Shown here one piece after another: positions 16,931 to 32,865 of a stretch of DNA of 64,000 bases; the stretch's first letter is position 1, and each line of letters begins with the position of its first letter. The position numbers and the translations under genes were made by a program. The notes under the pieces are model-generated. The model was not told the origin of the DNA, did not search any database, and was given only the letters and a program-made list of their open reading frames with translations. The DNA is from Deefgea tanakiae. GTDB taxonomy: Bacteria; Pseudomonadota; Gammaproteobacteria; Burkholderiales; Chitinibacteraceae. The stretch spans positions 930,001 through 994,000 of the forward strand of contig NZ_CP081150.1 of NCBI RefSeq assembly GCF_019665765.1, read 5' to 3'.

Positions 16931-17012
16931 AGTGACCGCAAAGGCCGATGTGTCGATGCCGACAGTTGAAAATTGAGAGGCCGCTAACCATCAGGTTGCG
17001 GCCTTCGTTATT
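16931..17012 (+). repeat. Dispersed palindromic repeat, copy 7 (right arm degenerate)
   Basis: TGACCGCAAAGGCCGATGTG start and an intact inner hairpin GGCCGCTAACC-ATCA-GGTTGCGGCC. The right arm is poorly conserved and would run into the 3' end of the SMC-like gene. It may also terminate that gene's transcript. Confidence 0.72.
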
Positions 17013-17028
17013 TGTTCATCACAGATAA

Positions 17029-18786
17029 TCATTGAGCCGGCGAAGACGAAGAGATAGGGGCATCGAAGTTGAGCAATGCCCGGCATTCAGCGTACTTCGT
17101 ATCGCTGAGAATCTTTTTTTCGTCCAGCTCAATAACGTGTGCTGCACTCTTATAGCTATCGATTTCGCTACGGTTCATAGCGCACAAAATGAGTTGTGTG
17201 TTTGGAGGTACCGAGTCCATCAGGAACTTAAGGATCTTCTCGTAGTTGAAATCTGCTTGTTCCTGTTGATTTGGTGTATCGATTACCACTGCCGAGAATA
17301 CCTCATTCTCTGCTCTATGCGCCTGTCGGATAATGGACATGTAATATGCTAGGAGGCCACGGGTGCTTTCCGCCGCGCCACCGCTTCCATAGAGCTTCTT
17401 GTAATCAAGAGGGGACTCGATTGGGGATAGATTTATGCCTTGAGCCTTCAGCTCATCGATATACTTAGCCAAGGAGTCTTTGAAGGTGGCATCAAGATTT
17501 TCTCGTTCATCCTTAGTCAATAGCTTCTTCTGTTCTGCTCTCAAGTTTTTGTTGGTGGCATTGATGGTTCGGATCAGAGTTGTTTTGGTCTCCATCGTTT
17601 GCTGCACATGCATCTGAACTGCGCGAGAAGCGATGCTGCCTAGGAATGATGATTCGGCTGAGTTTGTCCCTGTGTCAGTCGTTTCGGAGGAATCAAGCGA
17701 TTTATATTTGTTGTTGATGAAATCAATTTCAGTACGCGTGCTCTCGTGCTGTTTCTGAGTTCTAACCAGTTTTTTGTCTAGGAGGTCAATCTTTCCGCTG
17801 AGCTGTGTCACTAGGCTGTCTGCTTCATCCTTATCTGCGAGGATGGAGGCTCGTCTTGGTGACGAGTTATCGTGCTCGGTTCCACATAGCGGACACAGCA
17901 GGGACTCACCTTCAACGCATTCGACAGAAAAGGAGTAATCCTTTTCAAGCTCAGTAGATGCTAGCGTTGACAGATCAAGTTGACTTTGCAAATAGAGGCG
18001 TTCAGTTTGGATTTCGGCAATCGTACCAAGTAGTTCTTCTTGTTTAGCCTGGAGGTTGGCAATGTCTTCAGTGACCTCCGCAGCGAGGGTGTCGAACTCT
18101 CCCTTTGAAAGGGCAACGGTTTTGATCGATGTAGGCAGGTACGTTTTGACGACCTCGATTGCAGTCTCAATCTTCTTGACCTCTATTTCTGCTGTTTTTT
18201 TCTCAAGGTTTCGAGTAGCAATCTGCTCTTCGAACTCGAAAAATTCAGGTAGCAAATAACCTGTATGATATTCGATGATGGTCTTTTGCCACTTGGAGTA
18301 TTGCTCAAGATTGATGAAGCCATTCCATGCGTGAGACCAACTCCGCCGCTGATCTACATAGAAAGGCAAAAAGTAGAAGGCAGGAGGGGGAGATTCAAGT
18401 TTGGTTGCATCGTTCCTGTTTGGTAGCAAAGCCTTGAAACCAACGATCTCAGCAAAAACCTCAGAGTACTTACCAGTGATTTTAGGAAATTTTTCCCATT
18501 GACCATTTGGACGATGGAGAAACATTATGTTTCCGTATCGTCCAACCTGATAGGTCTCCCCTCCAATAGTGAAATCAACCAAGCAGCGAACATCAAATGA
18601 TGCCCATGTGATATCCAGCTCCAGATCTCCACCTAAAGTCCAGAAGAGCAACTTGGCTAGTGTCGATTTTCCAAAACTATTGTCGTTCGCCGTTATCAGG
18701 TTGAAGCGTGGTTTGAACTCGAACTGATTTCCGGACTTTAGGGTATCGGATGCTACTACCAGTCGTTTGAATGCTAAGTTTTTCAT
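17029..18786 (-). CDS. SMC/RecN-like ATPase with zinc-hook motif, LmuB-like (Lamassu)
   Basis: 585 residues. N-terminal Walker A (A-N-D-N-S-F-G-K-S-T, 33-42), two long coiled-coil arms (~185-285 and ~310-460), a central C-P-L-C (298-301) typical of Rad50/SMC zinc hooks, and Walker B A-V-V-I-D-T-P near 498-505. This is the layout of DNA-sensing SMC-like subunits; in Lamassu the LmuB SMC protein recognises DNA ends and releases an effector. Paired with the DUF4297 nuclease gene 53 nt upstream on the same strand, which fits a Cap4-type Lamassu without a visible lmuC. Bracketed by repeat copies 7 and 8. Assignment to Lamassu is inference. Confidence 0.72.
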   Translation of the reverse strand: MKNLAFKRLVVASDTLKSGNQFEFKPRFNLITANDNSFGKSTLAKLLFWTLGGDLELDITWASFDVRCLVDFTIGGETYQVGRYGNIMFLHRPNGQWEKFPKITGKYSEVFAEIVGFKALLPNRNDATKLESPPPAFYFLPFYVDQRRSWSHAWNGFINLEQYSKWQKTIIEYHTGYLLPEFFEFEEQIATRNLEKKTAEIEVKKIETAIEVVKTYLPTSIKTVALSKGEFDTLAAEVTEDIANLQAKQEELLGTIAEIQTERLYLQSQLDLSTLASTELEKDYSFSVECVEGESLLCPLCGTEHDNSSPRRASILADKDEADSLVTQLSGKIDLLDKKLVRTQKQHESTRTEIDFINNKYKSLDSSETTDTGTNSAESSFLGSIASRAVQMHVQQTMETKTTLIRTINATNKNLRAEQKKLLTKDERENLDATFKDSLAKYIDELKAQGINLSPIESPLDYKKLYGSGGAAESTRGLLAYYMSIIRQAHRAENEVFSAVVIDTPNQQEQADFNYEKILKFLMDSVPPNTQLILCAMNRSEIDSYKSAAHVIELDEKKILSDTKYAECRALLNFDAPISSSSPAQ

Positions 18787-18839
18787 GCTGCTTTGTCCTG
18801 AGATTTCTAATCAGCAGTTTGAAGTTGTCGATGGTCGGC

Positions 18840-19952
18840 TCATTTTTCATGGCATTTACTCAACAGCTCGTAGATGATCGCAGCTTGGATTGATTCCAAA
18901 TCAACAAGGTTGTTTTTGGTTGTTTCAGGCAAGGACTCAAAAGCCTTCTTCATAAACCATGTCGCACCTTGTTCTTCGAATGCCTCAAAGTTGCGTTCAA
19001 CCGTATCTTTGACTGCTTGATGGTTGTCGATGGCAATCAAGGTGCGTTCTAAGCGCACTGCATTGTGGTAGCGCTCAAAAGCTCTCCGAATCTGGATCCG
19101 CTTGTTAGACTTAAGTTCAAATTCGTTAAGGATGTCCTCAAAGTCCTGCAAGAAGACCTCAATACCCCTGCTTTCTGTATATGATGAAATGACTCTTTCT
19201 ACGTCGCTGTGGGTTGTTCCTTTATTCTTTACAAGGTTGTTCCACTCAGTAAAATCAAATGCCACAGCTCCCTTGCGATGCAAGTCGTCAATGAGCACTC
19301 GATAGATCGTAGAGGCATTGCACTTGGCACCTGGCGCTTTCACATCGACAAGCTTGGAAATTCGGCCAATAGCAACGTCCTGAAAACCGGATGCCGGCAG
19401 ATCGGGAGTAATAAACCTCAAAGTTTTAGGAATGGGGTAGGTGCCAAGTTCCTTGTCGAGCGCAGCTTGGATGTCTTTCAAGCAGTCATCGTGGAGATCA
19501 CCAATCGAAATAATCGAGAGCTTGAGGCCATCTATTTTGGGAGGTAAATTGAAGCCGCAGGTTGCAACTAGATCGAGCGAGTTCAGCTTGTCGACAAAAG
19601 GCTTTTCACGAACTCCTTGGAGCATCTTCCCAAGAATTGAATTTGTTACTATTTTGGCCTTAACCTTAGGAACCGAAGTAAGTTTTTGCTTGCTCCAAGC
19701 AGACGAGCTGACATTTTTTATCTGATTGAATTCAAACCGTGCGATGGACTCATCGGTCGAAGTTGCTAACACCACGTCTTCATGCAACTCGATAAAGACA
19801 ACATAATCGTCAGAATTTTCGTGAGCGCCAAGAATTCGGCACAGTGCCCAGTGGTACTGGTATTCGTATTTCTCGAACGTTTGCGCACCCGCCGTTTCTC
19901 GCTGTGCTGTGGCAAGAGGGTTATTGCCTGACAATTCCTTTGTTGTATCCAA
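18840..19952 (-). CDS. DUF4297/Cap4-type nuclease, LmuA-like effector
   Basis: 370 residues. The N-terminal ~200 residues resemble DUF4297 (dsDNA endonuclease domain, also in Cap4). They include a glutamine/aromatic helix (EKYEYQYHWAL), an acidic pair in IELHED (E58-D59), and F-N-Q-I-K (Q77/K79), the expected D/E...QxK arrangement of the PD-(D/E)xK fold. The C-terminal part is helical and unassigned. As first gene of the pair it would be the effector degrading DNA once the SMC partner senses foreign ends. Upstream lies repeat copy 8. Confidence 0.7.
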   Translation of the reverse strand: MDTTKELSGNNPLATAQRETAGAQTFEKYEYQYHWALCRILGAHENSDDYVVFIELHEDVVLATSTDESIARFEFNQIKNVSSSAWSKQKLTSVPKVKAKIVTNSILGKMLQGVREKPFVDKLNSLDLVATCGFNLPPKIDGLKLSIISIGDLHDDCLKDIQAALDKELGTYPIPKTLRFITPDLPASGFQDVAIGRISKLVDVKAPGAKCNASTIYRVLIDDLHRKGAVAFDFTEWNNLVKNKGTTHSDVERVISSYTESRGIEVFLQDFEDILNEFELKSNKRIQIRRAFERYHNAVRLERTLIAIDNHQAVKDTVERNFEAFEEQGATWFMKKAFESLPETTKNNLVDLESIQAAIIYELLSKCHEK

Positions 19953-20104
19953 TTACGTCCCCAAGTTTACTTGGCGTTGCTCACTGACGAGATGCCCCAT
20001 TAACCTTTCACAATTATACAGCTTTTGTTGGCTGTGAGTTTAAAACTTGCTGCGGAGACTATTCGGATTCTAGTGTAGACCGGTAGTTTCACTTTAAATC
20101 GTTG

Positions 20105-20217
20105 AATGACCGCAAAGGCCGATCTGTAGTTGCAGAAGTTTGAACAATGAAAGGCCGCAAACCATCTGGTTGCGGCCTTCATCATTTATTGCACTCCGCT
20201 ATGGCTGCTCGGTCATT
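20105..20217 (+). repeat. Dispersed palindromic repeat, copy 8
   Basis: Extended ends AATGACCG and CGGTCATT are a perfect inverted repeat; inner hairpin AAGGCCGCAAACC...GGTTGCGGCCTT. Separates the Lamassu-like pair from the 138-residue gene. Confidence 0.8.
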
Positions 20218-20241
20218 CGCAGGCATTTAATCCGAGGTGGC

Positions 20242-20658
20242 TCATAATGTTGCTCTTTCTTTTTCAGCCTTCTCGTTGGCATCCATTTCATTCACCAACG
20301 CAGTTAATAGTGAATCATGTGCCGCCATTCTCCACTGTTGTTCAATGTGGGTCAGCGCATCACACATGCGCTGGTAATGAATCAGCTGTTTTTCAAATCG
20401 ATTCGTTTCAGCATAGCCTTGCTGAAGCAAGTTTAAGGACTCTCGCAGCAAGTTCAGTCGTTGCACTTTAAGAAACGGCATTGGCGTCATTTTTCGGAGA
20501 CGCTCGGTTGCATTGAGTGCAAGGACAAGCATTTTCAAATTAGCTGGGAGCCACATTTCCCGATCATAAAGATGAATCGCGGACCACATTGGTAACATCA
20601 GGCTATCAACGAGTGCTGCCGCAGCAACTTTAGGTTTTTGTGAGGCATATTTGCGCAT
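20242..20658 (-). CDS. Hypothetical 138-residue helical protein
   Basis: Not recognised. 138 residues, predicted almost all-helical, with basic N-terminus (MRKYASQKPK), leucine-rich middle (LNLLRESLNLLQQGY) and acidic/basic tail (ANEKAEKERATL). No TM segment, signal or catalytic motif. No clear SD. It lies between repeat copies 8 and 9 and just downstream of the twin 92-bp repeats, so it could belong to a decayed mobile element. Confidence 0.5.
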   Translation of the reverse strand: MRKYASQKPKVAAAALVDSLMLPMWSAIHLYDREMWLPANLKMLVLALNATERLRKMTPMPFLKVQRLNLLRESLNLLQQGYAETNRFEKQLIHYQRMCDALTHIEQQWRMAAHDSLLTALVNEMDANEKAEKERATL

Positions 20659-20770
20659 CGTTTTCGTTAATTAAAATAAGTTGAATCGGAGGCGCGGAGT
20701 TTAACGCATCGTATTTTGCGAGACGAATCGGACTGATGAATGTTAAACGAAAGCAAAAGTTCATGAGCGG

Positions 20771-20880
20771 CCGCTTTGGCCGAAGTGTCGATGCCGACGG
20801 TTGAAAAATGAAAGGCCGCTAACCACCAGGTTGCGGCCTTAATCTTTTTTGGATCATGCCAATGCTGTTCGGCCATAGCC
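20771..20880 (+). repeat. Dispersed palindromic repeat, copy 9
   Basis: TGGCCGAA/TTCGGCCA ends, inner hairpin AAGGCCGCTAACC...GGTTGCGGCCTT. Last copy seen in the window; none found from 21 kb onward. Confidence 0.8.
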
Positions 20881-20917
20881 GACACTCAAATGTCTCTACA
20901 AAAGCTAGGGCGATTCA

Positions 20918-21009
20918 TTGTCACTTTCTACAATTTACGCCCAACTCCTGCAAAAAATGGGCAAAAATCACAAATAGTGACAAAAAATGAATGAAAGTGA
21001 CAAATCAAT
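20918..21009 (+). repeat. 92-bp palindromic direct repeat, copy A (iteron-like)
   Basis: Contains TTGTCACTTTC at the left edge, GCCCA...TGGGC in the middle, and GTGACAAA at 20977-20984 and 20997-21004. Nearly identical to copy B, 205 bp downstream. Confidence 0.85.
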
Positions 21010-21122
21010 ATTATATTTACATTTAAATTACGCTCCATGAAACCATCTTAATTAAAAAATTTAATTTTTAGTGGTGTAAAATGTAAGGTAAGTTAATTTT
21101 TCTCTGGTACGGAAGGTACTAT

Positions 21123-21214
21123 TTGTCACTTTCTACAATTTACGCCCAACTCCTGCAAAAAATGGGCAAAAATCACTAATAGTGACAAAAAATGGCTGAA
21201 AGTGACAAATCAAT
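21123..21214 (+). repeat. 92-bp palindromic direct repeat, copy B (iteron-like)
   Basis: The outer 12-bp inverted repeat is perfect here (TTTGTCACTTTC at 21122-21133, GAAAGTGACAAA at 21198-21209), with a third GTGACAAA motif between. The 113 bp between copies A and B is very AT-rich. Architecture resembles replication-origin or cis-replication regions of P4-like satellites; this is inference. Confidence 0.85.
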
Positions 21215-21452
21215 AGATTATTTACATGAAAATTACTCGTGAATCGAAAATTAACTCAAAAACAGGTTAATTTTTGGACCTTGAAAAAACGTAAGACAAA
21301 CTCTCATCTTGCGTTCCTGATCCACCGAGAGGGTGAAAGTGTTTGGTAAGCTTTTGGTCTCAAACACGCGTTCCGCGCGTTCAACTGTTTTTAATTTTCC
21401 GCTGCACGCTTTGCCAATTCGCCCATCATTTTTGTAGCCCTTGGAAACGCGG

Positions 21453-21731
21453 CTATGAGTTCAGTCCGAGTTCGCAAATGAGGGAACTCAAAAAAACGAT
21501 ATGTATTGACTTTTGGGTATTGATTATCAATGCCTACAGGGCAATACCTGTCATTCTAAAGTTCAGTAGGGCATTCATCGCCGTAGAAATTACGCCGTGG
21601 ATGGTGGCGGTTCGTGCGGTGTCGTTAAAACCTTGCACCTGCCATAGCGCATCGGTTGGATGTGCGCAGCTTTGTCGCGCTCCATTTATTACGGCTGACG
21701 AATTGAATGCAATCGACATCATACGGCGCAA
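21453..21731 (-). pseudogene. Ash/Icd-like phage-satellite ORF remnant
   Basis: On the minus strand, 65 residues run from MRRMMSIAF through the segments QGFNDTARTATIHG and ISTAMNALLNF to a stop at 21534. The same frame then continues for 26 residues to a second stop. The 'GF-x-DTARTAT...MNALLNF' pattern recalls the Ash/Icd-like small proteins of prophages and P4-like satellites. No codon usage or SD argument makes it convincing as an intact gene. It is the only assignable content between copy B and hsdS. Confidence 0.3.
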
Positions 21732-21798
21732 TGCGCTTCGCTTATTGACGCCCTACAAAAGCAATGTGCCGTACGCGGTTGGCTTACGATTTGTTTAG

Positions 21799-22959
21799 TT
21801 AGAAAACTTGGCTTTGACACGCCTCTGATAACGAGGCAACAACAGCAAGAGCATTACTACTTACCTCTTTTAAGTTATTAACTGTAATCACGGTCTGTTC
21901 GAATCTTTTTTTCAACTCAATGGGTGGAGTTGGGATATTCAAATCTCGCAAGATTGCTAAATTGATGTTTTTCTGAGCAGATTCAGGTGCGTTATCTTCC
22001 AGTGTCTTTTGCAAGAAGGATAACCATATTCGAACATATTCAACGGTTGCCGAGTCGACAGCGGAAAACCCAACAACACTGTCTGGGAAACATGCGTCAA
22101 ATCGCAAAATCCCTGTTTTAGCAATATTTGCCGCAATGGTTATGCACAGAGTGCCTTTGGGCCACATTTTGCTTTGTTGCAATCCTTTATCAGAGTAAGT
22201 CGCCGTATAACTGCGTATATAGCCATCGCTTTTTGAAACTTCACCGGTTTGGATAAGTGGATATGCTCCTCCCAAAAGAGAAGGGTCATTTCTTGGTCGA
22301 TGCTTTGATATTCCACGGTCAAGCGTGCCGATCTCACCGAGTTTTTTAACCGGCCACCCCTTCGGATTAGTGACGGGGTCGCCGAACATTTCTAGGAAGG
22401 TGGCGCGGAGGAAGTCGTCGGCGAGGGCGATGGCTTGGGCGCGTTTGCGGCGCAGGCTGTCGGCCTTGTCGAGGATGGCGGCGATGCGTTTTTGCTCTTC
22501 AAGCGGGGGAATTTGGATTAGAAATTTTTTCAAATCACGACCGGATAAATTTGGTTGTGCCGCTCCATTTTCAAATTTACTTATTTCTTTCTTGCAAGCG
22601 TGGCTGCCTAAGTATTGCATTAGGTAGTTTGTATCAATGGCTTTACTTGGTCGAATAATAATCAGTGATGAAGCTATCGCGGTCTGTGGTAAGTCTTTAA
22701 TTAATGCAAATTTTCCAATCGATCCGCGTAAACAAAATACAATATCACCAACTTTAGTCTTGCCTGCTCCAAGCTGCGTGTATTTATCTTGAGTTATATA
22801 ATTAAGCCCAGCGAGGCTGATGCCATTATCAGCAATATCCCCTGCGTTAATAAACGGAATACCACAATCTACAAATTCATCTCTTGAGGGATAGTTTATG
22901 CCCCTATCACCATTTTCAAACTCACAAACTTCACCTAGTTCCATCATTGGCCAAGTCAC
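21799..22959 (-). CDS. hsdS: Type I restriction-modification specificity subunit
   Basis: 386 residues. Two target-recognition domains (~1-150 and ~205-345), each followed by a conserved helical spacer. The central repeat reads [20 protein letters not shown], and a matching C-terminal '[12 protein letters not shown]' lies near the end. It directs HsdM/HsdR to a bipartite DNA site. The ATG overlaps the hsdM stop by 4 nt. Both recognition domains are AT-rich while the central spacer (about 22320-22510) is GC-rich like hsdM, a mosaic expected from domain shuffling. Confidence 0.95.
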
Positions 22960-24503
22960 AGCATAGCCTCCAACTCTTTCAACTCTCGCTGAATTTCATC
23001 TTCCAGCGTCATCAAGCGGTTCAGAATCTCGCGTGGGTCTTCGTGTTGTTCGACGGCGTAAACCTGTTGTTTGTAACGGTTGATTGATAGATCGTAGTTT
23101 TGCGCGACCAGATCGGCTTTGGGTACGCCAAAGGCTTGCTGGGTGCGATCGCTAAAGTCGCCGTCGCGGTTGCACCAGCGTTTGTATTCGGCAAGGACTT
23201 TGGGCAGATCGTTGTCTTTGATTGGTTGGCGTTTGTCGTCGAGCGAGTAGCCGTCGGCTTGTACGTCATAGAAAAAAACGTCGTCGGTACTGCCGCCTTT
23301 GGCGAACACGATAATGGCGGTCGATACACCGGCGTAGGGTTTGAATACACCGCTTGGTAGTGAAATCACGGCTTCGAGCTGGTGGTCTTCGATCAGGTGT
23401 TTACGCAGTTGCACGTGCGCTTTGGATGAGCCGAACAGCACGCCATCGGGCACGATGGTGGCGGAGCGCCCGCCGACTTTGAGCATGCGTAGAATCAGGC
23501 CGATAAACAGTAGCTCGGTTTTCTTGGTTTTTACCACGCGCAGAATGTCGGGCGATACGTCATGCTCGTCGAGGCTGCCTTTGAATGGCGGATTGGCCAA
23601 AATCAGATCGAAACTGTCTTTGGCTTGGCTTGGGCGCTTTTCGGCAAAGTTTTGGCTAAGCGTGTCTTGGTAATGAATCGCAGGCGCGGCGACGCCGTGC
23701 ATAATCAGATTCATGCTGGCGATGCGCAGCATGGTGGCGTCGAAATCAAAGCCGTGGAACATGTCGGTGTCGATGTGCTGACGATGCGCCTGCAGCAAGT
23801 CACCGCTGTACAGGGTGGCGGTATCGGCCTCACCGCGTTCATTAATAAAGGTTTCAGTATGGATACCTGCCGCACTGCTGTGTGTGCGCAGTAAATGATC
23901 GTAGGTTTCAACCAAGAAACCACCGGTACCGCAAGCGGGGTCGCAAATGCAGTCGGTCGGCTGCGGCTCCATCAGCTCGGCCATCATGCGGATGATGTGG
24001 CGCGGCGTACGGAACTGGCCGTTGATGCCCGCAGTGGTGAGTTTGCTGAGCAGATATTCGTACAGATCGCCCTTGGTGTCGCCCTGCTCTAGAGGCAATG
24101 CGTTGACTGCATTGACGGCCCTGACTAGCAAGGTATCTCGCTGAATCATGAGCTGAGCATCTTTCATAAAGTCGGCGAATAAACTGCCTTCGTTACCACC
24201 TCTCTCAGCCATGATACGAAAATGCTTAAATACTTTGTCGCGCACATGCGGCAACATTTGCTCAGCACCAAAGTGCCGCCAGGTTTCCCAGCGGCAATCT
24301 TGCTCGTCGGGGTTAAAGCGGCGATTAAAGGCTTGGCCCGTCATCTGGCTACGGCGCTCGTCTTTGCGCTCTTGCATATCTAATAAGCGCGAATACATCA
24401 GAAAGGTAATTTGCTCGATGACCGTCAGCGGATTGGTAATGCCGCCGGTCCAGAATTCGGTCCAGAGGCAGTCGATTTTGTTTTTTAATTCGCCGGTGAT
24501 CAT
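22956..24503 (-). CDS. hsdM: Type I restriction-modification DNA methyltransferase subunit
   Basis: 515 residues. N-terminal HsdM_N helical domain, then an N6-adenine methyltransferase domain with motif [10 protein letters not shown] (188-196, SAM binding) and motif IV N-P-P-F (304-307, catalysis). It methylates adenine in both half-sites with two M per S subunit. Overlaps the upstream small ORF and the downstream hsdS by 4 nt each (ATGA type), so the operon is translationally coupled. Confidence 0.96.
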
Positions 24504-24796
24504 GGTGTTGCCTTCGTTAAAATTTTGAGTTCGGTGATGCAGCGTTGCTCTAGTTTGTAGAGCCCGTGGCGTTCGGTGGTTTTACTTTTTGCCCGTACGC
24601 TAAAACCGAGGTCGCGAACATGACGAAGCACTTCATGCTCGTCATGCAGCTCAATACTGTCTTGGGTCGTGTTGCCGTGTGGCGCTACGCGAAAAGCGAT
24701 GACCCCCGTCTTTTTACACCTCATTTTGATCGGGTAAAGTACGTCGCCACTGCCGTGTATCAGGCAAAAAAGATGGCTAAATCGTTCGATGGTCAT
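24500..24796 (-). CDS. Unknown small protein inside the hsd operon
   Basis: 98 residues, starting 4 nt after the hsdR stop and overlapping hsdM by 4 nt, so it is certainly part of the operon. Features: an HGSG..L segment near 14-20, a strand-rich middle ([13 protein letters not shown]), an acidic patch ([12 protein letters not shown]), and a basic tail. No family recognised. Position between R and M suggests a role in assembly, control of restriction, or protection during expression (inference). Confidence 0.7.
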
Positions 24797-24800
24797 GGTC

Positions 24801-27800
24801 TTATTGATTCAAATTAGGGCTTGCTGGTGCCGCAGGCGGTTCCAGTGGCTCGCCGAAGCTGCGGATGATACTGGAAAGCTCGTTAAATTGATCGTCGTGA
24901 GGGAAAACACCTGCAATACCTTCACCATGTATCCGTGTGAAAGGCATTTCAAACAATGCATTGAGCTTGATACCCTTGTTGATGTTGATTTGATCTTTTA
25001 ACATATCCAAAAAGCGAATTTGCTTGCTGTCGAGATTGTATTTTTGCGCAAATGTGGTGAAGCGTTGCGAGACCGCATTGGCATCTAGGCCGACGATATC
25101 GCGCAAGATCGCGCCTAAGGGCGCAGCGGTGTCTGGGTAAAACTGCTTGAGCAAATTCAAATCCAGCGTTGGGTTTTGTGTGTGCAATAGGCTATTGAGT
25201 TGATCAAGCTCGGCATCTGAAACGGACAAACCTTCACGGATTTTGATTAGCACAGGGTTGGTGGCAAACAATGGGCGCAATGCCGCTTCAACAGTTTGTT
25301 GATAAATTCGCGCGTCGACCGATTTGATGTTGGTGAGTCGCTCACCAATTTCATACAGCGCTTCGTCTTCTTTTACATCGAACACGCGGGGCTCTGGCTT
25401 TGGCGGCGCAACGGGCGGCTCGGCCAAGTGAATGATTTCACGCAAGGCGAGGCGTTTGCTTTCCAAATCGGCAAAAGTGACGTCTTGCCAGAATTCAGCG
25501 CTTTCGATTTCTTTGAGTATTTTAGCTTTGGCGCGTACTGCATTCAGATTGGCTGGCAAGCGGCTGAGTAAATCCAGAATGTCGGCTTTGACTGGATTGG
25601 GCTGTGTGCCTTTGAGTGCGGCATCTTGCGCCTCAGTCATTTGAATATCCCAGCGCAGGGCATCACCTTGGCCGCGAACATCGAGCGCTTGCATCAGTGG
25701 CGCGACGGTTTCACCCAAGAGCGTCACGGTGATTGGGGCAAAATCGTGCACGAGCTTGGTGTCGCGGGCTTGCTGCACGGCTTGCCAATTGTCACGCACG
25801 CAGATGGTACGATCATCGAGCGTGATGGCATCGTTAATAAGTAAATCTCGCAGCGTTGAAAAGGCTTCTAGCTCACGTGATTTTAACGCCAAGCGTGCTA
25901 GATTGAGGCGAGATTCATAGCGACGTTGCGCGAGTGATTTGGGTGTTTTCGCTTCGGCTTCGTCGGCATTCATTTCATGGAAGGCGAAGTTTTCCCAATG
26001 ATCAAAAATCAAAAAATGCTGTTTGTCTTGCTTGGGGCCAAATAGGTCTTTGCATAGGCGCGTACCACGGCCAATCATTTGCCAGAATTTGACTTTGGAT
26101 TTAACGGGTTTGGCAAATACCAGATTGACGACTTCAGGTACATCGATGCCGGTATCGAGCATATCGACTGAAATCGCGATCCGCAGCGGATTTTTAGGGT
26201 CTTTGAAATTATCGATTAAGGTCTCAGCGCGTGGCTCTTCGGAGTGAATCACGGCGCAGAAATTACCGGAGAATTGCGGCCATTCTTCGTTAAAGACGGT
26301 TTCTAGCAAGCGGGCATGTTTGATATTGCGCGCAAAGATGATGGACTTGCCTGGCAATTGGCCGTCGATATCACGAATACCGCGTTCCATTAAGTTTTTC
26401 AAAATAGCGCGATTGGTGTCTTCATTGAAAATGGCGTTGTCGAGTTCCTTGCCATCAAAATCAAGCTCATTGGGGTCGATGCCTTGGTCTTCTAATTGCG
26501 CGATTTGCTCATCATTGAGGTGCGCGGCTTTAATACCATCGCGCAGAAATTGCGTGGTGTGGGTGACGATTTTGTACGGGACTAAGTTGCCCTCACGTAC
26601 CGCGTCTTCTAGCGTGTAATTGGCGGTCGGGGTTTTGTAATCACAAGCAAAAAGATTGCAAGTACTGCGGCTAACCATTTCGACTGGCGTGGCAGTGAGG
26701 CCGACTTGCAGTGCATCAAAGTAGCGGAAAATATCGCCGTATTGGTTGTAGATCGAACGATGCGATTCATCGGCGATGATCAGGTCGAAAAAGCCCACGT
26801 CGAAGTTTTCGTAATCATTGATCAGGCCTTGGTAAATGCCGATGTAAATCCGCGCATCAAATTTGCTGATGGTATTTTGTTGGCCGAAGACGTAAATCGG
26901 CTCTTTGAGATAATCGTTGAATACTTTTTTGCCTTGCTTGCGCAGCTCTTTGCGATCGCACAGAAACAGCACGCGTTTAGCCCATTTGGCTTCGATCAGC
27001 ATTTTAGACAGCGCAATCGCAACGCGAGTTTTACCGGTGCCGGTGGCTTGTACGATTAAGGCTTTGCGATGCTTAGCGGCAAAACGCTCTTTGACACGAG
27101 TGAGCGTTTCGATTTGATACAATCGGCCTGCAATCTCAGAATCGGGTTGTATCTTGAGCAAATCAAGGCGGTTATTACGCTGGAAGCCAATACGGTACTG
27201 CAGTGTATCTTTGCTATAAAAACCATACACCTTGCGAGGAGGGTAGCCCATCGCGTCATCCCAAACCCAAATATCGTGCCCATTGGTAAAGAAAATCATT
27301 GGCCGTTGGCCGTACATTTTTTCTAAGCCATCAGCGTAATCTTTGGCTTGAGCTTGGCCGACACGCGCATCTTTGCTGGTGCGTTTGGCTTCAACAACGG
27401 CGAGTGGCTTACCGTTGTCATCCCATAAAACATAGTCGGCATAGCCGATGCCCGTTTGAGTACCTTGATGTTGAACTTCCACTTCTAGGCCAACTGCAGG
27501 ATTGGGCTTGGCTGCGGTAGGAACAGACCAGCCAACCAAGGCAAGATCACGATCCACCATGTATTCACGGGTTTTGTCTTCCGAGAAATGCAGTTGCCGA
27601 ACGGTGGCTTGGCTTTGCTGGGCCAGTTGCTCGATTTCTTCCTTGGGTAAAGGGCTATTTGCCTTGTCGATGGCGGCGCGTTGAGCTGCTTCACTAGCGC
27701 GCAAAGCTTCTAGCTCGGCGAGCATCGCTTTGATTTGGATTTCTTTGGCCGAGTTTTCTTCTGCGAGGCGTTTTTTCTCTCGCTTGATCGCTGCTTTACT

Positions 27801-28244
27801 GTCGATGCCTTCGGTTGGTGGTTCTTTGTAGCTACCGAAATCTTCTACTTTGCCGCCAGTGAGTGAAACATGAACCCAACGTGCCAATTGCCATGCTTCA
27901 TGCAAAGCCCGTAGCGCATCCATTGGGCGAATGGTTTCACCGTGCGCGGCACTATTTCCCAGCCGACGCAGTAAATGAAATTTATCGAGCACCAGTTTAT
28001 CGGCCAGCATCGTAAAGCTGCCGTTATTGAGTAAATCGGCAAAAGTCGATTGCGGCGCTTTGGGCAGGCGTAGACGGGTATACAGATGATCGACCATGCG
28101 CTCAGCTAAATTTCTTAACTTGACGAGCGCACTTTCAGGATCTGTATAGATATAGTGCTCGGCATAGCCGCCCATATTGGCTAGCTCTGGGTAGCTAGCG
28201 CGTAGTGGTTCAAAATTCAGTGATTGCAGGTCTTGCATCAACAT
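24801..28244 (-). CDS. hsdR: Type I restriction endonuclease subunit (EcoEI-like)
   Basis: 1147 residues. Order: DUF4145 helical domain (~1-130); coiled coil (~150-215); PD-(D/E)xK nuclease (~220-330) with V-V-E-A-K at 283-287; SF2 translocase with Walker A T-G-T-G-K-T (401-406), D-E-S-H (492-495) and T-A-T-P (517-520), helicase C domain with an arginine-finger Q-x-x-G-R-G-T-R; and an EcoEI_R_C-type C-terminus. It translocates and cuts unmethylated DNA. First gene of the operon; a sigma-54-type promoter lies 40-55 nt upstream. An ATG two codons later is an alternative start. Confidence 0.96.
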   Translation of the reverse strand: MLMQDLQSLNFEPLRASYPELANMGGYAEHYIYTDPESALVKLRNLAERMVDHLYTRLRLPKAPQSTFADLLNNGSFTMLADKLVLDKFHLLRRLGNSAAHGETIRPMDALRALHEAWQLARWVHVSLTGGKVEDFGSYKEPPTEGIDSKAAIKREKKRLAEENSAKEIQIKAMLAELEALRASEAAQRAAIDKANSPLPKEEIEQLAQQSQATVRQLHFSEDKTREYMVDRDLALVGWSVPTAAKPNPAVGLEVEVQHQGTQTGIGYADYVLWDDNGKPLAVVEAKRTSKDARVGQAQAKDYADGLEKMYGQRPMIFFTNGHDIWVWDDAMGYPPRKVYGFYSKDTLQYRIGFQRNNRLDLLKIQPDSEIAGRLYQIETLTRVKERFAAKHRKALIVQATGTGKTRVAIALSKMLIEAKWAKRVLFLCDRKELRKQGKKVFNDYLKEPIYVFGQQNTISKFDARIYIGIYQGLINDYENFDVGFFDLIIADESHRSIYNQYGDIFRYFDALQVGLTATPVEMVSRSTCNLFACDYKTPTANYTLEDAVREGNLVPYKIVTHTTQFLRDGIKAAHLNDEQIAQLEDQGIDPNELDFDGKELDNAIFNEDTNRAILKNLMERGIRDIDGQLPGKSIIFARNIKHARLLETVFNEEWPQFSGNFCAVIHSEEPRAETLIDNFKDPKNPLRIAISVDMLDTGIDVPEVVNLVFAKPVKSKVKFWQMIGRGTRLCKDLFGPKQDKQHFLIFDHWENFAFHEMNADEAEAKTPKSLAQRRYESRLNLARLALKSRELEAFSTLRDLLINDAITLDDRTICVRDNWQAVQQARDTKLVHDFAPITVTLLGETVAPLMQALDVRGQGDALRWDIQMTEAQDAALKGTQPNPVKADILDLLSRLPANLNAVRAKAKILKEIESAEFWQDVTFADLESKRLALREIIHLAEPPVAPPKPEPRVFDVKEDEALYEIGERLTNIKSVDARIYQQTVEAALRPLFATNPVLIKIREGLSVSDAELDQLNSLLHTQNPTLDLNLLKQFYPDTAAPLGAILRDIVGLDANAVSQRFTTFAQKYNLDSKQIRFLDMLKDQININKGIKLNALFEMPFTRIHGEGIAGVFPHDDQFNELSSIIRSFGEPLEPPAAPASPNLNQ

Positions 28245-28283
28245 ATCTGGCAGGCTCGCTAATTATTCGGTATGTGAATAGAT

Positions 28284-28299
28284 AGCCAGAAGTGTGCCA
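28284..28299 (-). promoter_or_regulatory. Sigma-54 (-24/-12) promoter for the hsd operon
   Basis: On the minus strand the sequence is TGGCACACTTCTGGCT. This matches the consensus TGGCAC-N5-TTGCW with one mismatch in the -12 block, and the GG and GC are separated by the required 10 nt. Transcription would begin near 28272, giving a ~28-nt leader before hsdR. It starts 8 nt after the stop codon of the sigma-54 activator gene on the same strand. Confidence 0.75.
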
Positions 28300-28306
28300 G
28301 CCTCCT

Positions 28307-29857
28307 TTAGTCGGTTTGTTCGTCGCTGGAAATACCGAGTTTTTCCATGCGGTTGCTGAGTGTTTGGTAGTTAGTGATGTTCAAATATTCGGCTGCTTGT
28401 TTCTTTTTACCCGCTGCTTTTTTCATGGCGCGCTGCAAATAATGGCGTTCAACCTGATCCAAAACTGCTTGTAAATCAAAACCTTTGTGCAATGTCTGAT
28501 CAAGAATCTGATTACTATTGCTTGGTGCCTGTAACAGATTGCGTTCAATATCCTCGGCCCTGATTTCAGCTTGGCGCGACCAGATCGCAGCACGCAACAG
28601 CGTGTGATACAGCTCGCGGATATTGCCCGGCCACGGGTGATTGAGTAGAATTTTTTTTGCACCAACAGAAATTATTTTATTTTGCCATTCGGGTAAATCA
28701 CGGCTGTCGTTGTTGATACGCGCCAAGCTGTGCTCGATGAGCAATTCAATATCTTCCGCGCGTTCACGCAGCGGCGGTAAATGAATAATGCCCACCGCAA
28801 GGCGATGAAACAGGTCTTCACGGAAGCGCCCAGCGGCGACTTCGGCCATTAAATCACGATGCGTAGCGGCAATGATGCGCACATCCACTTTGACCGGATT
28901 GGTTTCACCAACAGGCGTAATTTGTCCTTCTTGCAGCGCACGCAGCAAACGAACTTGGGCATTGAGCGGTAAATCACCAATCTCGTCTAAAAACAGCGTG
29001 CCGCCATCAGCTTCTCTAAAATGCCCCAATCGAACCGAGTCCGCGCCAGTAAAAGCGCCTTTTTTGTGGCCAAACAATTCGGAATTGACCAGCTCTTTGG
29101 GAATCGCACCACAGTTCACGGCGATCAACGCTTCACCTTTGCGCCGACTGGCTTCATGAATCGCGGTAGCAAATAGTTCTTTACCCGTGCCTGTTTCACC
29201 CAAAATCAAAACTGGAACATTGTGGATAGCAACACGGCGCGAGAGATCGATTTGCTCTTGCATCACAGCGCTACGATGAATGATTTTGGAAAATTCAGGC
29301 GCACTACTGAGCGGCTCACTCGCAAGGCGCTCAATGCGTTGCTCGCTGCGCTGCAAGAACTCAGGCAAGAAATCACTAGCGAGATCGAAAGAGAAATCGA
29401 CTTTTTCGATACCAAACTCAACCGAGCCATCGTTCAGTTTAGTTTGCGCAGATTGAATGAGAGACGCAGGGAAACGTGTTTTGGCCAGCATTATCCAGAT
29501 CACCGCCATTGCAGGCGTGCCTGGACTCAAGTGGAATGTGAGTTCGATGTCGTTTTGGGGGAGCTTTAGCACGGTGAGAAACTGGCTAACCTGCAAGTAA
29601 ATATCGGCGTAGTTGGTTGGGCCATCCAATTGAACATCTTGCAGATCAATACCGATATAGCCAGTTTTTTGCTCTAACCAATCGCAAAACTGGGCACTGC
29701 GCTCATGAGGATAATTGGTGAGTAAAAGCACGCGATCATATTTGACGCTGGCATCCATCAACGCATTGGCAACTGGGCCAACGCCCAAGGGCAATTTGCC
29801 CTCTGCCGCTTTGTGGTCAGTCTCGCCAATCCAAGAAATAAGCCATTTTTTCTTCAT
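28307..29857 (-). CDS. RtcR-like CARF-AAA+ sigma-54 activator
   Basis: 516 residues. The N-terminal ~180 residues align by eye with the CARF domain of RtcR (TNYADIYLQVSQFL...; HLSPGTPAM loop at 109-117; ARFP-type R-x-P-A-S-L-I-Q-S end). The central AAA+ sigma-54 activator domain has G-E-T-G-T-G-K-E (220-227), G-A-F-T-G-A (267-272, the sigma-54 contact loop, intact) and L-F-L-D-E-I-G (288-294). A C-terminal Fis-type helix-turn-helix closes it (KKKQAAEYL...). CARF domains sense cyclic or 2',3'-cyclic nucleotide ligands. RtcR normally controls rtcBA, but here the only downstream target is the hsd operon. Confidence 0.85.
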   Translation of the reverse strand: MKKKWLISWIGETDHKAAEGKLPLGVGPVANALMDASVKYDRVLLLTNYPHERSAQFCDWLEQKTGYIGIDLQDVQLDGPTNYADIYLQVSQFLTVLKLPQNDIELTFHLSPGTPAMAVIWIMLAKTRFPASLIQSAQTKLNDGSVEFGIEKVDFSFDLASDFLPEFLQRSEQRIERLASEPLSSAPEFSKIIHRSAVMQEQIDLSRRVAIHNVPVLILGETGTGKELFATAIHEASRRKGEALIAVNCGAIPKELVNSELFGHKKGAFTGADSVRLGHFREADGGTLFLDEIGDLPLNAQVRLLRALQEGQITPVGETNPVKVDVRIIAATHRDLMAEVAAGRFREDLFHRLAVGIIHLPPLRERAEDIELLIEHSLARINNDSRDLPEWQNKIISVGAKKILLNHPWPGNIRELYHTLLRAAIWSRQAEIRAEDIERNLLQAPSNSNQILDQTLHKGFDLQAVLDQVERHYLQRAMKKAAGKKKQAAEYLNITNYQTLSNRMEKLGISSDEQTD

Positions 29858-30088
29858 GACTCAATCTTACCCTAAGGGCGATGTAAGGATAAGAATATTT
29901 ATCTTTCTGAAAAAAATCTGCGATTCATCAAGTAAATGCCAGTACATATCACCGCTGTCAGATCTGGTTTTACAGCCTTAAAAAAGAATGAAGTTAATGA
30001 AATCAACGAAATTACAGGCCTAATTTCATTAATGGTTTTTTTTACATATAAACAATATGAGTTTTCGAATATTTTTATTGATTTCTAA

Positions 30089-30125
30089 CGCGAGCCCTTG
30101 AGTCAATTCACGAAAAGTGTAGTCT
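30089..30125 (+). repeat. 124-bp-period repeat, unit A
   Basis: CGCGAGCCCTTGAGTCAA followed by GTGTAGTCT at 30117-30125. First of three units upstream of alpA and divergent from the CARF activator gene. Confidence 0.8.
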
Positions 30126-30212
30126 TAGCGCTATTGAACAGACAATGCGTAAAGTCCAGTTCCTTAAACTATTCGAATTAGGTGAGCAACAAAGAAATTT
30201 ATTGAAATCTAT

Positions 30213-30249
30213 CGCGAGCCGTTGAAAAAAATCGTCAGCCGTGTAGTCT
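30213..30249 (+). repeat. 124-bp-period repeat, unit B
   Basis: CGCGAGCCGTTGA and GTGTAGTCT at 30241-30249, exactly 124 bp after unit A. Sequence between the blocks is diverged; the blocks themselves are conserved. Confidence 0.8.
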
Positions 30250-30336
30250 GAGCAGCACCAAGCAGTCAATGTACGATTGCCATAGCCGGTAAATATGCAA
30301 ATGCACGATGCAATGAAAAATGTTGAAACTTTTTTT

Positions 30337-30373
30337 CGCGAGCCCTTGAGTCAAAATTTTAAAAGTGTAGTCT
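30337..30373 (+). repeat. 124-bp-period repeat, unit C
   Basis: CGCGAGCCCTTGAGTCAA and GTGTAGTCT at 30365-30373, again exactly 124 bp on. TTGAGT and TAGTCT are 16 nt apart, so the block could be a promoter for alpA (start 30407). Confidence 0.8.
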
Positions 30374-30406
30374 TGTCGATATTGAAATAACAAAGAGGAT
30401 GAACTG

Positions 30407-30607
30407 ATGCACAAAATTATCAGAATCGGAGATGCTGCAAAAACACTAGGCATTTCACGTGCTACTTTATACCGGCTTGTGAAATGCAAAGCACTGCCTG
30501 AGCCTGTGAAAATCACACCAAATGGCCGCGCATCTGGTTTCTTTGACTTTCAGATTGAACAATACATTTCTGAAATCGAAAGCAAAATTAAAGAACAAAA
30601 TTGCTAA
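30407..30607 (+). CDS. AlpA-family regulator/excisionase-like protein
   Basis: 66 residues, with AGAGGA upstream. MerR-like winged helix of the AlpA/phage_AlpA family: I-R-I-G-D-A-A-K-T-L-G-I-S-R-A-T-L-Y-R-L then P-x-P-V-K-I-T-x-x-G-R-A-S-G-F/W and a short C-terminal helix. Such proteins activate or direct excision genes in mobile elements. It is first in a three-gene AT-rich operon with a ribbon-helix-helix protein and a relaxase, and lies 34 nt after repeat unit C, which may be its operator. Confidence 0.85.
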   Translation: MHKIIRIGDAAKTLGISRATLYRLVKCKALPEPVKITPNGRASGFFDFQIEQYISEIESKIKEQNC

Positions 30608-30639
30608 TAAACTCATTGGACAAATGAATTGGAGACATC

Positions 30640-30849
30640 ATGGGGAAAAGCATTACATTTCGAGTTACAGACGCTGAGCACGAACAGATTTTTGAATGTT
30701 CGGCAGCTCTCAATAAGACAGCATCTGATTTGATCAGGTTGTTAGTTTTTAAAAATAGCGAACACACTCTGCATCTTGAAAATAGAAATGTTGCGCTAGA
30801 AAATGAAGTCAGGAAATTAAAAGAAAATTATTCGAAGAATAATGGCTGA
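30640..30849 (+). CDS. Ribbon-helix-helix, MobC-like relaxosome accessory protein
   Basis: 69 residues with GGAG upstream. N-terminal ribbon (KSITFRVTDAEHEQI) and two helices (NKTASDLIRLLVF), then a short coiled coil (ENRNVALENEVRKLKENY). RHH proteins of this size next to relaxases bind oriT and recruit the relaxase. 18 nt before the relaxase gene. Confidence 0.7.
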   Translation: MGKSITFRVTDAEHEQIFECSAALNKTASDLIRLLVFKNSEHTLHLENRNVALENEVRKLKENYSKNNG

Positions 30850-30867
30850 TATTGCGAGGTTGTTGAG

Positions 30868-32865
30868 ATGAACTTTAAGATATTCACGATTACTAAAGAA
30901 TATGCCGAAGAGCCAAGATTGCTAATTCAGTACATCAACGACCTGAAAGATATCAACACATCACCTGATTTCTACAGCTTGAAAATGCTGAATTGCTTAA
31001 CAAGCAGCCTTATCGATGAGTGTGAGCAATTTTGTTATGACATAAAAAATGCGAGAAGTAACGCAAAACCATTAATGCATTTCATGATTAGTTTTTGTTC
31101 GAGTGAATATCCATCCGATTTTAAAGTAAAGGAAATTGTCCAAAATATTTTACAAGCACTTGGAGTAGGTGACCATATTGTATTTTACAAAATGCATTGG
31201 GTGACCGAAAATATTCATGTTCATCTTGCACTATCTAGAATCCATCCAGTTTCGAAAAAAATAATTCAAATTGAAAATGGATTTATTAAAAAAGCGATAC
31301 GCCGAGTGGTGGATAGAATTGCGGCAATTGAAGGATGGCGTCAAGAAAATAACAGTAGAACATTCGTGTCGATGAATGAAGTTTCAGTCGATAAAAAATC
31401 TAAAATTATAAGTAAAACAACTGAATCCATTAATAAAATGTTGTTTTCTGCTTTTGAAAAATCAACAAACTGGGAAGAATTTTACACGAATTTATTGCAA
31501 CTTGGACCAAGGATTTCTATCGATAAAAAAACTAACGTCAAGGGTGAATTAATCATCATTTTTAATGGAGCAGTCTTTTATGAAAAAGAAATTCCAGCTC
31601 AATTTTCTTATCAAGAACTTAAAAAATCTTTTGGCAATTACAAGGAGTTAAATCATGGATTCAAACCCAACAAACACTCAGAGTTTCACGATGAATACTT
31701 TGGGGAGCGAAAAAACAATAATTTGTCACCACAATTGCTTGCATGCACAAATATTCGCGACAGAGGAGCTTGTGCCGGTAGTTTTTTGCATGCGCATGCG
31801 CTCATTAATCGAATTAAAAATTCAATTGTGCGACGGGAATCCTGTCACACTGCTGAGCAATCTAGAGTAATACAAAAAGATCTGGGTTTTAGCTCAAAAA
31901 TTTGTGAACAGATTAAAAAGAGAAAAGATATTTCTCTGATTTTTCGATGCGGTCAAAACCCAGATTTTTTCCAATTCGCCAGTAGCGAGTTGACTGCTGA
32001 TTTTCTGATGAATTATTTAAGGAAAGTGAGGCTATCTAAAAAACCCATTGATTTTTACTTGGGCTTCGACATTTCAACGTGGCTATGTTTCAAAATTAAT
32101 AGTGATGCGCTTGCGACGTTGGACGAGCTACCTTTTCAGATGTTCGTCACTGAATATCTTGATGGCTTTTATGTAGCGATTGATATAAAACCAGTTCTTC
32201 TTGAATTTAAAAATGCTAGTTATTTGGCTAAAAAAGCTATCTTTGGGGTAATTAAGGATCAAATCAGCATCGATTGCAATTATCAACAAGAAGTCGGTTT
32301 GCCGATTTATACGAAAGATCAAGTAGAAATTGTGATAACGAAGAAACGATCATACCAACACGATGCTGATTTTGTGGAAAAGATTAATAGAAGGATTGAG
32401 GACGATGTCTGTAAAAAGAATGGCGTTGATCGAGTCGATATCAAGACTTTATTAAATGAAATCCGGCCAAAATACACCAGTTGGAGTGTTCATTTTACTA
32501 GGGAACTCTTCCTTTTTTATTATATTGGACACCAAAAATTTGGTAACCAATTATCTAGAGAGTTGATTGCTGACGCATTTATGGAGGTCGCAAAGAACCA
32601 TGGCTATACCCGGGCTGAAATAGATGAAATGGTTATAAATTTTAGTTTGGTTTGCAATAATGAACCAAAACAAAAGACAAGTACTGCGCTGAAAAAGAAA
32701 AAATTTACAACAAATGATTTACACGAAAAGTGTATTAAATCTTTTGTAAACTTCGATATCACGGAAGTTAAAGACGTATATTGGAGTGCTCTGCTGCATG
32801 AAAACCACTCGGGAGTGGAGATGAATGCACATCCAGAAGAAATAAGCCAATCTATCAGTTCTTAA
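30868..32865 (+). CDS. Relaxase/mobilisation nuclease
   Basis: 665 residues. The N-terminal domain has the three-histidine metal site: H110 followed by N-I-H-V-H (H117, H119) in the HxHxxLSRI-x-P form of motif III, and an upstream H71-F-M-I-S-F strand. The catalytic tyrosine would be near the N-terminus (Y21 or Y37; not certain). The ~450-residue C-terminal part is unassigned and AT-rich. It would nick oriT and pilot transfer of a mobilisable element using a helper conjugation system. No integrase, primase or coupling protein is nearby. Confidence 0.72.
   Translation: MNFKIFTITKEYAEEPRLLIQYINDLKDINTSPDFYSLKMLNCLTSSLIDECEQFCYDIKNARSNAKPLMHFMISFCSSEYPSDFKVKEIVQNILQALGVGDHIVFYKMHWVTENIHVHLALSRIHPVSKKIIQIENGFIKKAIRRVVDRIAAIEGWRQENNSRTFVSMNEVSVDKKSKIISKTTESINKMLFSAFEKSTNWEEFYTNLLQLGPRISIDKKTNVKGELIIIFNGAVFYEKEIPAQFSYQELKKSFGNYKELNHGFKPNKHSEFHDEYFGERKNNNLSPQLLACTNIRDRGACAGSFLHAHALINRIKNSIVRRESCHTAEQSRVIQKDLGFSSKICEQIKKRKDISLIFRCGQNPDFFQFASSELTADFLMNYLRKVRLSKKPIDFYLGFDISTWLCFKINSDALATLDELPFQMFVTEYLDGFYVAIDIKPVLLEFKNASYLAKKAIFGVIKDQISIDCNYQQEVGLPIYTKDQVEIVITKKRSYQHDADFVEKINRRIEDDVCKKNGVDRVDIKTLLNEIRPKYTSWSVHFTRELFLFYYIGHQKFGNQLSRELIADAFMEVAKNHGYTRAEIDEMVINFSLVCNNEPKQKTSTALKKKKFTTNDLHEKCIKSFVNFDITEVKDVYWSALLHENHSGVEMNAHPEEISQSISS

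Follow-up and report, generated by a model that had tools for sequence, protein, structure and literature searches.

A type I restriction-modification operon behind a CARF-domain sigma-54 activator in Deefgea tanakiae, and candidate regulatory sites within the activator gene

RtcR-like CARF-NtrC-HTH (helix-turn-helix) proteins that are not linked to Rtc are often associated with restriction-modification (R-M) systems, and have been described as likely sigma-54 activators of downstream genes that may sense phage-related ligands, for example RNA with a 2',3'-cyclic phosphate (Makarova et al. 2014, PMC4012209). Superoperons headed by RtcR and containing HsdR, HsdM and HsdS appear in the paper on CoCoNuT systems (PMC11090510). 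The rtcBA operon has an upstream activating sequence (UAS), an integration host factor (IHF) site and a -24/-12 site, and E. coli RtcR requires both RtcA and RtcB (PMC9650030); Salmonella RtcR binds tRNA halves with a cyclic phosphate (PMC7790460). A study of Xylella gives a predicted site at -28 of a type I R-M operon (PMC3224663), and RptR is a repressor of a type I R-M system (PMC12255303). Here we analyse a stretch of 64,000 nucleotides from Deefgea tanakiae (contig NZ_CP081150.1, positions 930,001 to 994,000; hereafter the window), in which a CARF-containing bacterial enhancer-binding protein (bEBP) is encoded directly before a type I R-M operon. We consider it likely that the operon is controlled by a compact sigma-54 switch cassette made up of the CARF activator, an enhancer within its open reading frame (ORF), an IHF bend and a promoter behind its stop codon. 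An earlier note on this DNA knew of no described design of this kind. The R-M link and the sigma-54 idea were already published in 2014 (PMC4012209), and the superoperons have been described as well (PMC11090510). For the sites embedded in the ORF, the exchange of cargo and the hairpin, all of which the note had missed, a search of the open-licence literature found no paper.

The activator and the promoter behind its gene

The minus strand carries, in this order, the activator gene (28307-29857), 7 nt, a -24/-12 site, hsdR, orf98, hsdM and hsdS. The -24/-12 site, TGGCACACTTCTGGCT (28284-28299, minus strand), begins at the eighth nucleotide after the activator stop, where the earlier note had seen it, scores 13.7 bits and points into hsdR-orf98-hsdM-hsdS. 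We scored sigma-54 promoters with an approximate matrix, at a threshold of 12 bits, in 86 loci (window included) whose activator ORF is 450 aa or longer and whose stop is followed by 100 nt or more of sequence; other loci were dropped. A promoter of at least 12 bits lies within -30 to +160 nt of the activator stop in 71 of them, starting at -30 to +25 in 61, and its commonest place is directly after the stop codon (n=19). The same survey of the opposite strand found 0/86, and only 3 of 49 non-CARF bEBPs from the same searches have such a promoter. Among the strand positions of the fetched loci, true sites included, a score of at least 12 bits occurs about once per 15,000 and a score of 13.7 bits once per approximately 34,000; the latter is reached twice in the window, both strands together. 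The GG-N10-GC core of the predicted promoter is kept in relatives, and the promoter and gene order, on whose conservation the earlier note had staked its proposal, are conserved. A purine run (AGGAGG-like) is located between the activator stop and the -24 box (28300-28306, minus strand) and also in many of the beta loci compared. An early search for palindromes around the promoter did not yield a clear UAS; the best match with four-base arms, CCAG-N11-CTGG in 23 of 68 loci, seems to sit in codons of the conserved recognition helix and was set aside.

The activator is a protein of 516 aa with a CARF-AAA+-Fis layout. It contains Walker A GETGTGKE (220), GAFTGA (267), Walker B LFLDE (288) and FREDLFHR (345), and is recognised by Pfam RtcR (28.2 bits, cut-off 23.1), Sigma54_activat, AAA_lid_14 and HTH_8, which bears out the intact GAFTGA, ATPase motifs and Fis-type HTH previously claimed for it. 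The best of three PADLOC RtcR models is RtcR_PspF2 with 656 bits over residues 3-509 (RtcR_PspF1 263, RtcR 242), and in our reading this model stands for the R-M-linked group of 2014. The NCBIfam RtcR equivalog gives 374.7 bits, below its cut-off of 650. Taken alone, the CARF sensor domain (residues 1-190, Rossmann core to about residue 157; 29288-29857, minus strand) scores 139 bits with RtcR_PspF2, 55 with RtcR_PspF1, 45 with CARF4 (CARF-PDDEXK) and 33 with RtcR. The name 'RtcR-type' given to this sensor in the earlier note is loose in view of the scores of the CARF domain. These scores make an RNA-end ligand one option among several, and since the domain is nearer to CARF4 than to RtcR, cyclic oligonucleotides stay possible as the signal. 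The predicted structure of the domain (pLDDT 87.4) has 28 matches in the PDB at E <= 0.001, of which 27 are CARF by name (Csm6, Cam1, Card1, Cad1, Can2) and one is TYW4; the best has E 1.2e-5 and TM ~0.5. Two weak PDB sequence matches (E 0.098) were disregarded. Profiles, motifs and the structural model agree in predicting a full-length RtcR_PspF2 CARF-bEBP with a CARF fold, Walker A and B, GAFTGA and a Fis-type HTH.

RtcB and RtcA were both searched for in the organism's own genome and not found, in line with the absence of rtcBA stated in the earlier note, and the wiring of rtcBA therefore cannot be copied here. RpoN is present, as is IhfA. Among makers of cyclic oligonucleotides, SMODS was not found in this genome; the Cas10-palm model gave seven weak matches, the best of 30.7 bits and two above the cut-off of 27, which we read as probable GGDEF-type cyclases.

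Relatives were obtained by a CARF-alignment search of genome contigs, which found 365, the best 80 of which were retained. The CARF domain alone served as query because full-length queries drew in other bEBPs: both the full-length activator (97 of 100 genomes) and the full PADLOC model at 1e-95 (307 of 369) were swamped by them. The domain occurs in 6 of 399 evenly drawn whole genomes of the order and in 22 of 398 of the phylum (own genome counted in both), on 5 of 72,556 plasmid records, one of them typed conjugative, and on 8 viral contigs. A phage source was also considered, and no record of the phage collection contained the domain. Among ten genomes carrying a family member, RpoN was found in nine and RtcB in four.

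Synonymous constraint inside the activator gene

A codon-by-codon comparison, corrected for pair and amino acid and assessed with 2000 permutations, detected two segments of excess synonymous identity in the activator genes of 18 beta loci (0.353 and 0.295; 99% of the permuted maxima are below 0.210, and 0/2000 reach either value). In 17 other loci there is one such segment (0.269, 0/2000), homologous to the second beta segment. Further segments were not significant; the next one in the 17-locus set, at the recognition helix, has p 0.17. The common constrained place is AGAAA-N-TTTCT-N9-AGAAA-N-TTTCT, ~350 nt upstream of the promoter. In the window it is represented by tandem AGAAA-N-TTTCT palindromes 20 bp apart (28647-28677, minus strand), with 16 of 20 positions matching, a synonymous-shuffle p of 0.0033 and a centre 355 nt before the ORF end.

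The best match to the element in the ORF falls at -320 to -400 nt in 58 of 68 loci, and 34 of the 58 reach p<0.01 when compared with synonymous shuffles. By our count 51 of the 68 score at least 15/20 there, compared to a maximum of 14 among 49 control bEBPs, with a motif derived from the same loci that were later scored. A held-out set of 11 loci, newly drawn in the phylum survey, contained ten with both the element (16-19/20, p <=0.025) and a promoter (nine of at least 13.7 bits and one, in L175, of 11.1 bits), although this is a single test and most of its ten positive loci look closely related; the eleventh has a short ORF only and neither element nor promoter. In 98 loci, the ten held-out ones included, the ORF element occurs in 68 of 73 with a near-stop promoter and in 3 of 25 without one (Fisher p = 3e-14). 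Codon choice shows the same place: arginine is encoded by AGA in 40 of 45 cases within the element against 182 of 2604 in the remainder of the same genes, and leucine by CTT in 64 of 73 against 698 of 4164, as counted on 71 loci that were themselves chosen by the element motif. The element scores 19/20 in the activator gene of Sorangium (67% G+C), and bacteria from several phyla have it at the same position. The conserved palindromes at a fixed distance inside the activator ORF are a candidate enhancer.

The segment specific to the beta group, which is its strongest constraint peak, corresponds to an IHF-like site ~170 nt upstream of the promoter. In the window this site is AATCAAAACCTTT (28474-28486, plus strand), matching 8 of 9 consensus positions in our reading. 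IHF-like sites (8-9/9) are present in the last 270 nt of the ORF in 19/19 beta-group loci, 11 of them with 9/9, versus 12/49 others; in 14 of these 19 loci the site reported coincides with the constrained one, whereas the window's reported site is another one with a tied score. Against synonymous shuffles, 8 of the 19 loci reach p <=0.05, and the 8/9 site of the window, with p 0.64, is not significant on its own. The case for IHF is therefore made by the constraint at the level of the group. In 13 hand-picked loci with a far promoter (four with promoters of only 10.3-11.5 bits; L143, L146 and L148 left out), the exact IHF consensus is found in the gap between gene and promoter in 10, where 0.14 are expected by shuffling, and at -40/-41 from the promoter in 8. 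Judged by its motifs, the far-type gap has the ordinary IHF-promoter order, outside the ORF, and the predicted sites move together with the promoter.

Exchange of cargo and the start of hsdR

We classed the cargo of 68 loci with our own seeds and reading and left the rest out of the tree. The classes comprise HsdR1 operons (33), HsdR2 operons (14), a vWA-phosphatase-kinase-helicase set (12), an AAA_15-type ATPase pair (7) and hsdM-first operons (2), and agree with the annotation and family matches for the examples checked. On a quick tree of the 68 activators, in which 17 of 65 inner branches are weak, the cargo labels require 20 changes, between a minimum of 4 and a shuffled mean of 31.6 (0/200 as low). 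The nearest relative of the window activator, in genome G037 (L003), is 88% identical and keeps the promoter and the ORF element, and its cargo is hsdM-hsdS-hsdR, unlike the hsdR-first order of the window. In G004, of the same genus, a decayed activator copy keeps an identical promoter and 15/20 of the element. By this comparison of loci, the same predicted switch has been placed before different defence systems in relatives.

An AAA_15/AAA_21 ATPase stands behind hsdS in L064, L065, L067, L069, L071, L072, L076, L082, L088 and L136, and as first cargo behind the activator in L092, L102, L104, L122, L127, L131 and L137; the nearest PADLOC models are PDC-M55A and NsnB, and the ATPase mostly comes with a partner outside known families. 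In L092 what we read as a short open hsdR-like start follows the promoter, ahead of the ATPase pair, and is perhaps a remnant of a replaced hsdR.

In 18 loci, chosen by an hsdR start of the MQD type, the promoter can pair with the segment directly before this start. The hairpin of the window (28247-28300, minus strand), whose 5' arm is the promoter and whose 3' arm is the segment immediately ahead of the hsdR start, has an energy of -19.5 kcal/mol. The pairing energy is below that of shuffles (z<0) in 18/18 loci, with p<0.05 in 11 and p 0.076 in the window. Folding of the hairpin, which covered 16 of the 18 loci (not L072 and L075), gave negative z in 16/16, with -3.5 in the window. Elsewhere the mean z is near 0: none of 38 loci with other starts has p<0.05, and of 16 others with an NFE-coding start one does (L097). 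Native arms pair better than arms swapped between loci (-18.0 vs -15.5 kcal/mol, p 5e-5, 0/20000 permutations). In nine loci 84.6% of cells pair, compared to 81.8% in shuffles (0/500). A covariance model, R1, made from nine loci with the structure given by hand, recovered its nine, L088 (E 0.0013) and, weakly, four further loci at the correct position (L165, L156, L068, L069) and one, L114, at an incorrect position. The predicted hairpin between the promoter and the hsdR start may block translation of hsdR from read-through mRNA. Because the coding frame of the 3' arm is broken in some loci, we keep the hairpin as supported but unproven.

Sigma-54 transcripts are expected to start 12-14 nt behind the -12 GC; for hsdR of the window, a start about 12 nt behind it would fall near 28273. 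Of 32 loci with an NFE-coding start, 31 being HsdR1, 23 have an ATG at the expected distance, 21 of them in an open frame with the start, and the same holds for 2 of 41 others; loci with a site below 12 bits and four near-copies were left out of this count. Leaderless hsdR mRNA is thus predicted in many relatives, and not in the window.

The operon extends beyond the interval 24500-29857 considered in the earlier note, as hsdM and hsdS lie outside it. All HsdR motifs sought (PD-ExK, GTGKT, DESH, QMIGRGTR) were found in the product of hsdR (24801-28244, minus strand; 1147 aa), which matches PADLOC REase_I PDLC03047 with 874.5 bits, and those sought in HsdM (DPACGTG, NPPF) were found as well (hsdM, 22956-24503, minus strand; 515 aa). 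The product of hsdS (21799-22959, minus strand; 386 aa) has two specificity-domain stretches. These genes are predicted to encode a type I R-M system with intact catalytic motifs, as far as sought; hsdM and hsdS each overlap the preceding gene. The accessory gene orf98 (24500-24796, minus strand), in the slot between hsdR and hsdM, had no family match in Pfam, NCBIfam and PADLOC-type profile scans. It has a homologue at the same position in Aquitalea (L068), and may be a nucleic-acid-binding accessory. An orf98-like domain is fused to an HNH endonuclease in G584 (L180 1489-2229, minus strand). The slot between hsdR and the next hsd gene holds long coiled-coil-like proteins in L063 and L121, RmuC-like in our reading, and another gene in L071, as if it were an accessory slot.

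A two-gene Lamassu-like system follows hsdS on the same strand (17029-18786 and 18840-19952, minus strand; LmuB 794 bits, LmuA 502 bits). Upstream of the activator there is a gene for a MobA/VirD2-type relaxase (30868-32865, plus strand; Pfam Relaxase), and a similar relaxase-like ORF adjoins the decayed activator copy in G004 (L004), which suggests that the island may be mobilisable. A scan of 17000-31000 with Rfam found nothing at gathering threshold.

Alternative readings and the proposed switch

Several further observations weigh against the reading of the locus as a sigma-54 cassette, beside the circular choice of motif and loci and the single held-out test noted above. A -24/-12 match alone is no proof of use, the -12 box of the window is TGGC and not TTGC or TCGC, and 15 of the 86 loci have no promoter of 12 bits. 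The eight loci with kinase-type cargo show no constrained segment (best p 0.27). The ORF element is missing from five loci that have a near promoter and occurs in three that have none, L175 with its near site of 11.1 bits being among these three. G287 carries a family member and gave no RpoN match. Kinship inflates all counts, and near-copies remain (in the promoter survey, among others, L033/L136, L142/L143 and L146/L148). The synonymous constraint itself could reflect another feature of the activator mRNA or DNA, such as an antisense promoter, an RNA element or codon pausing: the element is A+T-rich and lies in coding sequence, and its binding is only predicted. We regard this explanation as improbable, since the tandem palindrome has the 20-bp spacing expected of a UAS, its position is shared across phyla, and the element was not found in nine far-promoter loci, the far type having its exact IHF site at -40/-41 in 8 of 13.

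A more serious possibility, if not the one we favour, is that the promoter and the activator are real but that the R-M system is also expressed constitutively, by read-through from the activator gene or from a sigma-70 start, so that the switch does no more than raise the level of restriction. A type I system has to methylate its host before it cuts, and with hsdM and hsdS overlapping the genes before them basal methylation needs some transcript. On the operon strand, nothing resembling a terminator was found by our scan between the activator and hsdR, so that for the switch to be 'tight', as the earlier note had it, read-through would have to be blocked by other means; the hairpin could do so by silencing hsdR in read-through mRNA. 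A sigma-70 start for hsdR, which the earlier note had named as decisive against its proposal, was looked for by a simple scan, in itself weak evidence: it found 5 sigma-70-like sites compared to a shuffle mean of 10.4, none of them just upstream of hsdR on its strand and one weak site on the operon strand inside hsdR, at 25267. As for the hairpin, the chance is close to even that it does not lock translation but is a by-product, either of coding constraint on an N-terminal extension of HsdR or of a DNA palindrome to which a protein binds. Several loci have their 3' arm within an open in-frame extension beginning at the predicted transcription start, and the hairpin is limited to MQD-type starts; L063, a beta hsdR-first locus with another start, has none (z +0.52), and it is no general feature of the other loci. 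Covariation is weak: both sides change in only 2 of 18 pairs, a number that 135 of 500 shuffles reach as well. RNAalifold on a MAFFT alignment found no pairs, a result that we think stems from misaligned arms. The window arm's own partner ranks 8 of 18 in the swap test, and R1 missed the window, as well as L062, L072 and L074. Evidence against a mere by-product comes from the preference of native arms over swapped ones, from the retention of pairing in L070 and L082, where the frame from the ATG to hsdR is broken, and from the absence of the hairpin in L003, a close activator relative before hsdM (z +0.59), and in L087, which has other cargo (z 0.03).

From the conserved sites and the gene layout we infer protein binding, a signal and silence before induction, as follows. 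The AAA+ ring would be kept inactive by the CARF domain until this binds a signal of infection or stress, either of nucleotide type or an RNA fragment. The Fis-type HTH would bind the two palindromes that lie within the activator's own ORF, ~350 bp upstream of the promoter, and the AAA+ ring would assemble on this element. IHF, bending the DNA ~170 bp upstream of the promoter and also inside the ORF, would allow the ring to open E-sigma54 at the -24/-12 site, leading to transcription of hsdR-orf98-hsdM-hsdS. Less certainly, in loci with an MQD-type start, the window included, the hairpin would block hsdR on read-through mRNA, while the sigma-54 mRNA, which is without the 5' arm, would be translated. 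With hsdR first, an inducible operon faces a problem of self-restriction, and silencing of hsdR by the hairpin in read-through mRNA only would solve it.

As a single unit of activator, enhancer, bend and promoter, the cassette can be placed before different defence modules. There is also a bolder view, which we put forward tentatively and think rather unlikely in its full form: a portable, self-contained infection switch swapped among unrelated defence operons across phyla, whose start site before hsdR also licenses translation. Read-through mRNA would then give the methylase and specificity subunits with the hsdR start hidden or unusable, and sigma-54 mRNA, leaderless or free of the arm, would give the nuclease. 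If true, the host would stay methylated and the cutting subunit would appear only upon infection, so that an inducible R-M system would escape self-restriction; the proposal also raises the question of how such a system spares its own unmethylated DNA. The prediction of 2014 is made concrete in the form of exact sites that can be mutated without a change of protein, a motif by which members can be found, and interchangeable cargo. If correct, there would be a standard 'alarm module' common to type I R-M, kinase-helicase and AAA-ATPase defence operons, and the identity of the ligand would reveal the infection signal that such systems sense.

The RtcR proteins of rtcBA in E. coli and Salmonella share with this activator the CARF-AAA+-Fis layout and the role of sigma-54 activator, and UAS, IHF and -24/-12 sites are all present at rtcBA. 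Here, in contrast, the CARF subfamily is another one, the cargo is a type I R-M system in a genome where RtcB and RtcA were not found, the candidate enhancer and the IHF-like site lie in the activator ORF, and the promoter lies behind the activator stop. The hairpin resembles those of T4 late genes, which block translation of read-through early mRNA: in both cases the promoter-proximal arm would drop out of the specific transcript. Unlike in T4, it is here proposed on inference only, at a sigma-54 promoter and for a bacterial restriction gene. The R-M-linked group of 2014 is the same family by profile and has the same predicted role, while the main-text passages on it (Makarova et al. 2014, PMC4012209) describe neither a promoter nor an enhancer, a hairpin or a phylogeny of the cargo. 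In the CoCoNuT/Shield superoperons, too, an RtcR-like gene heads co-directional defence genes including HsdR, HsdM and HsdS (PMC11090510), but no CoCoNuT gene was recognised at the window locus; the comparison is confined to this locus, relatives not having been searched for CoCoNuT genes. The type I R-M system repressed by RptR is likewise under a dedicated regulator; RptR, however, is a small repressor acting on TAGCTA sites (PMC12255303), whereas the regulator described here is predicted to be a ligand-gated sigma-54 activator.

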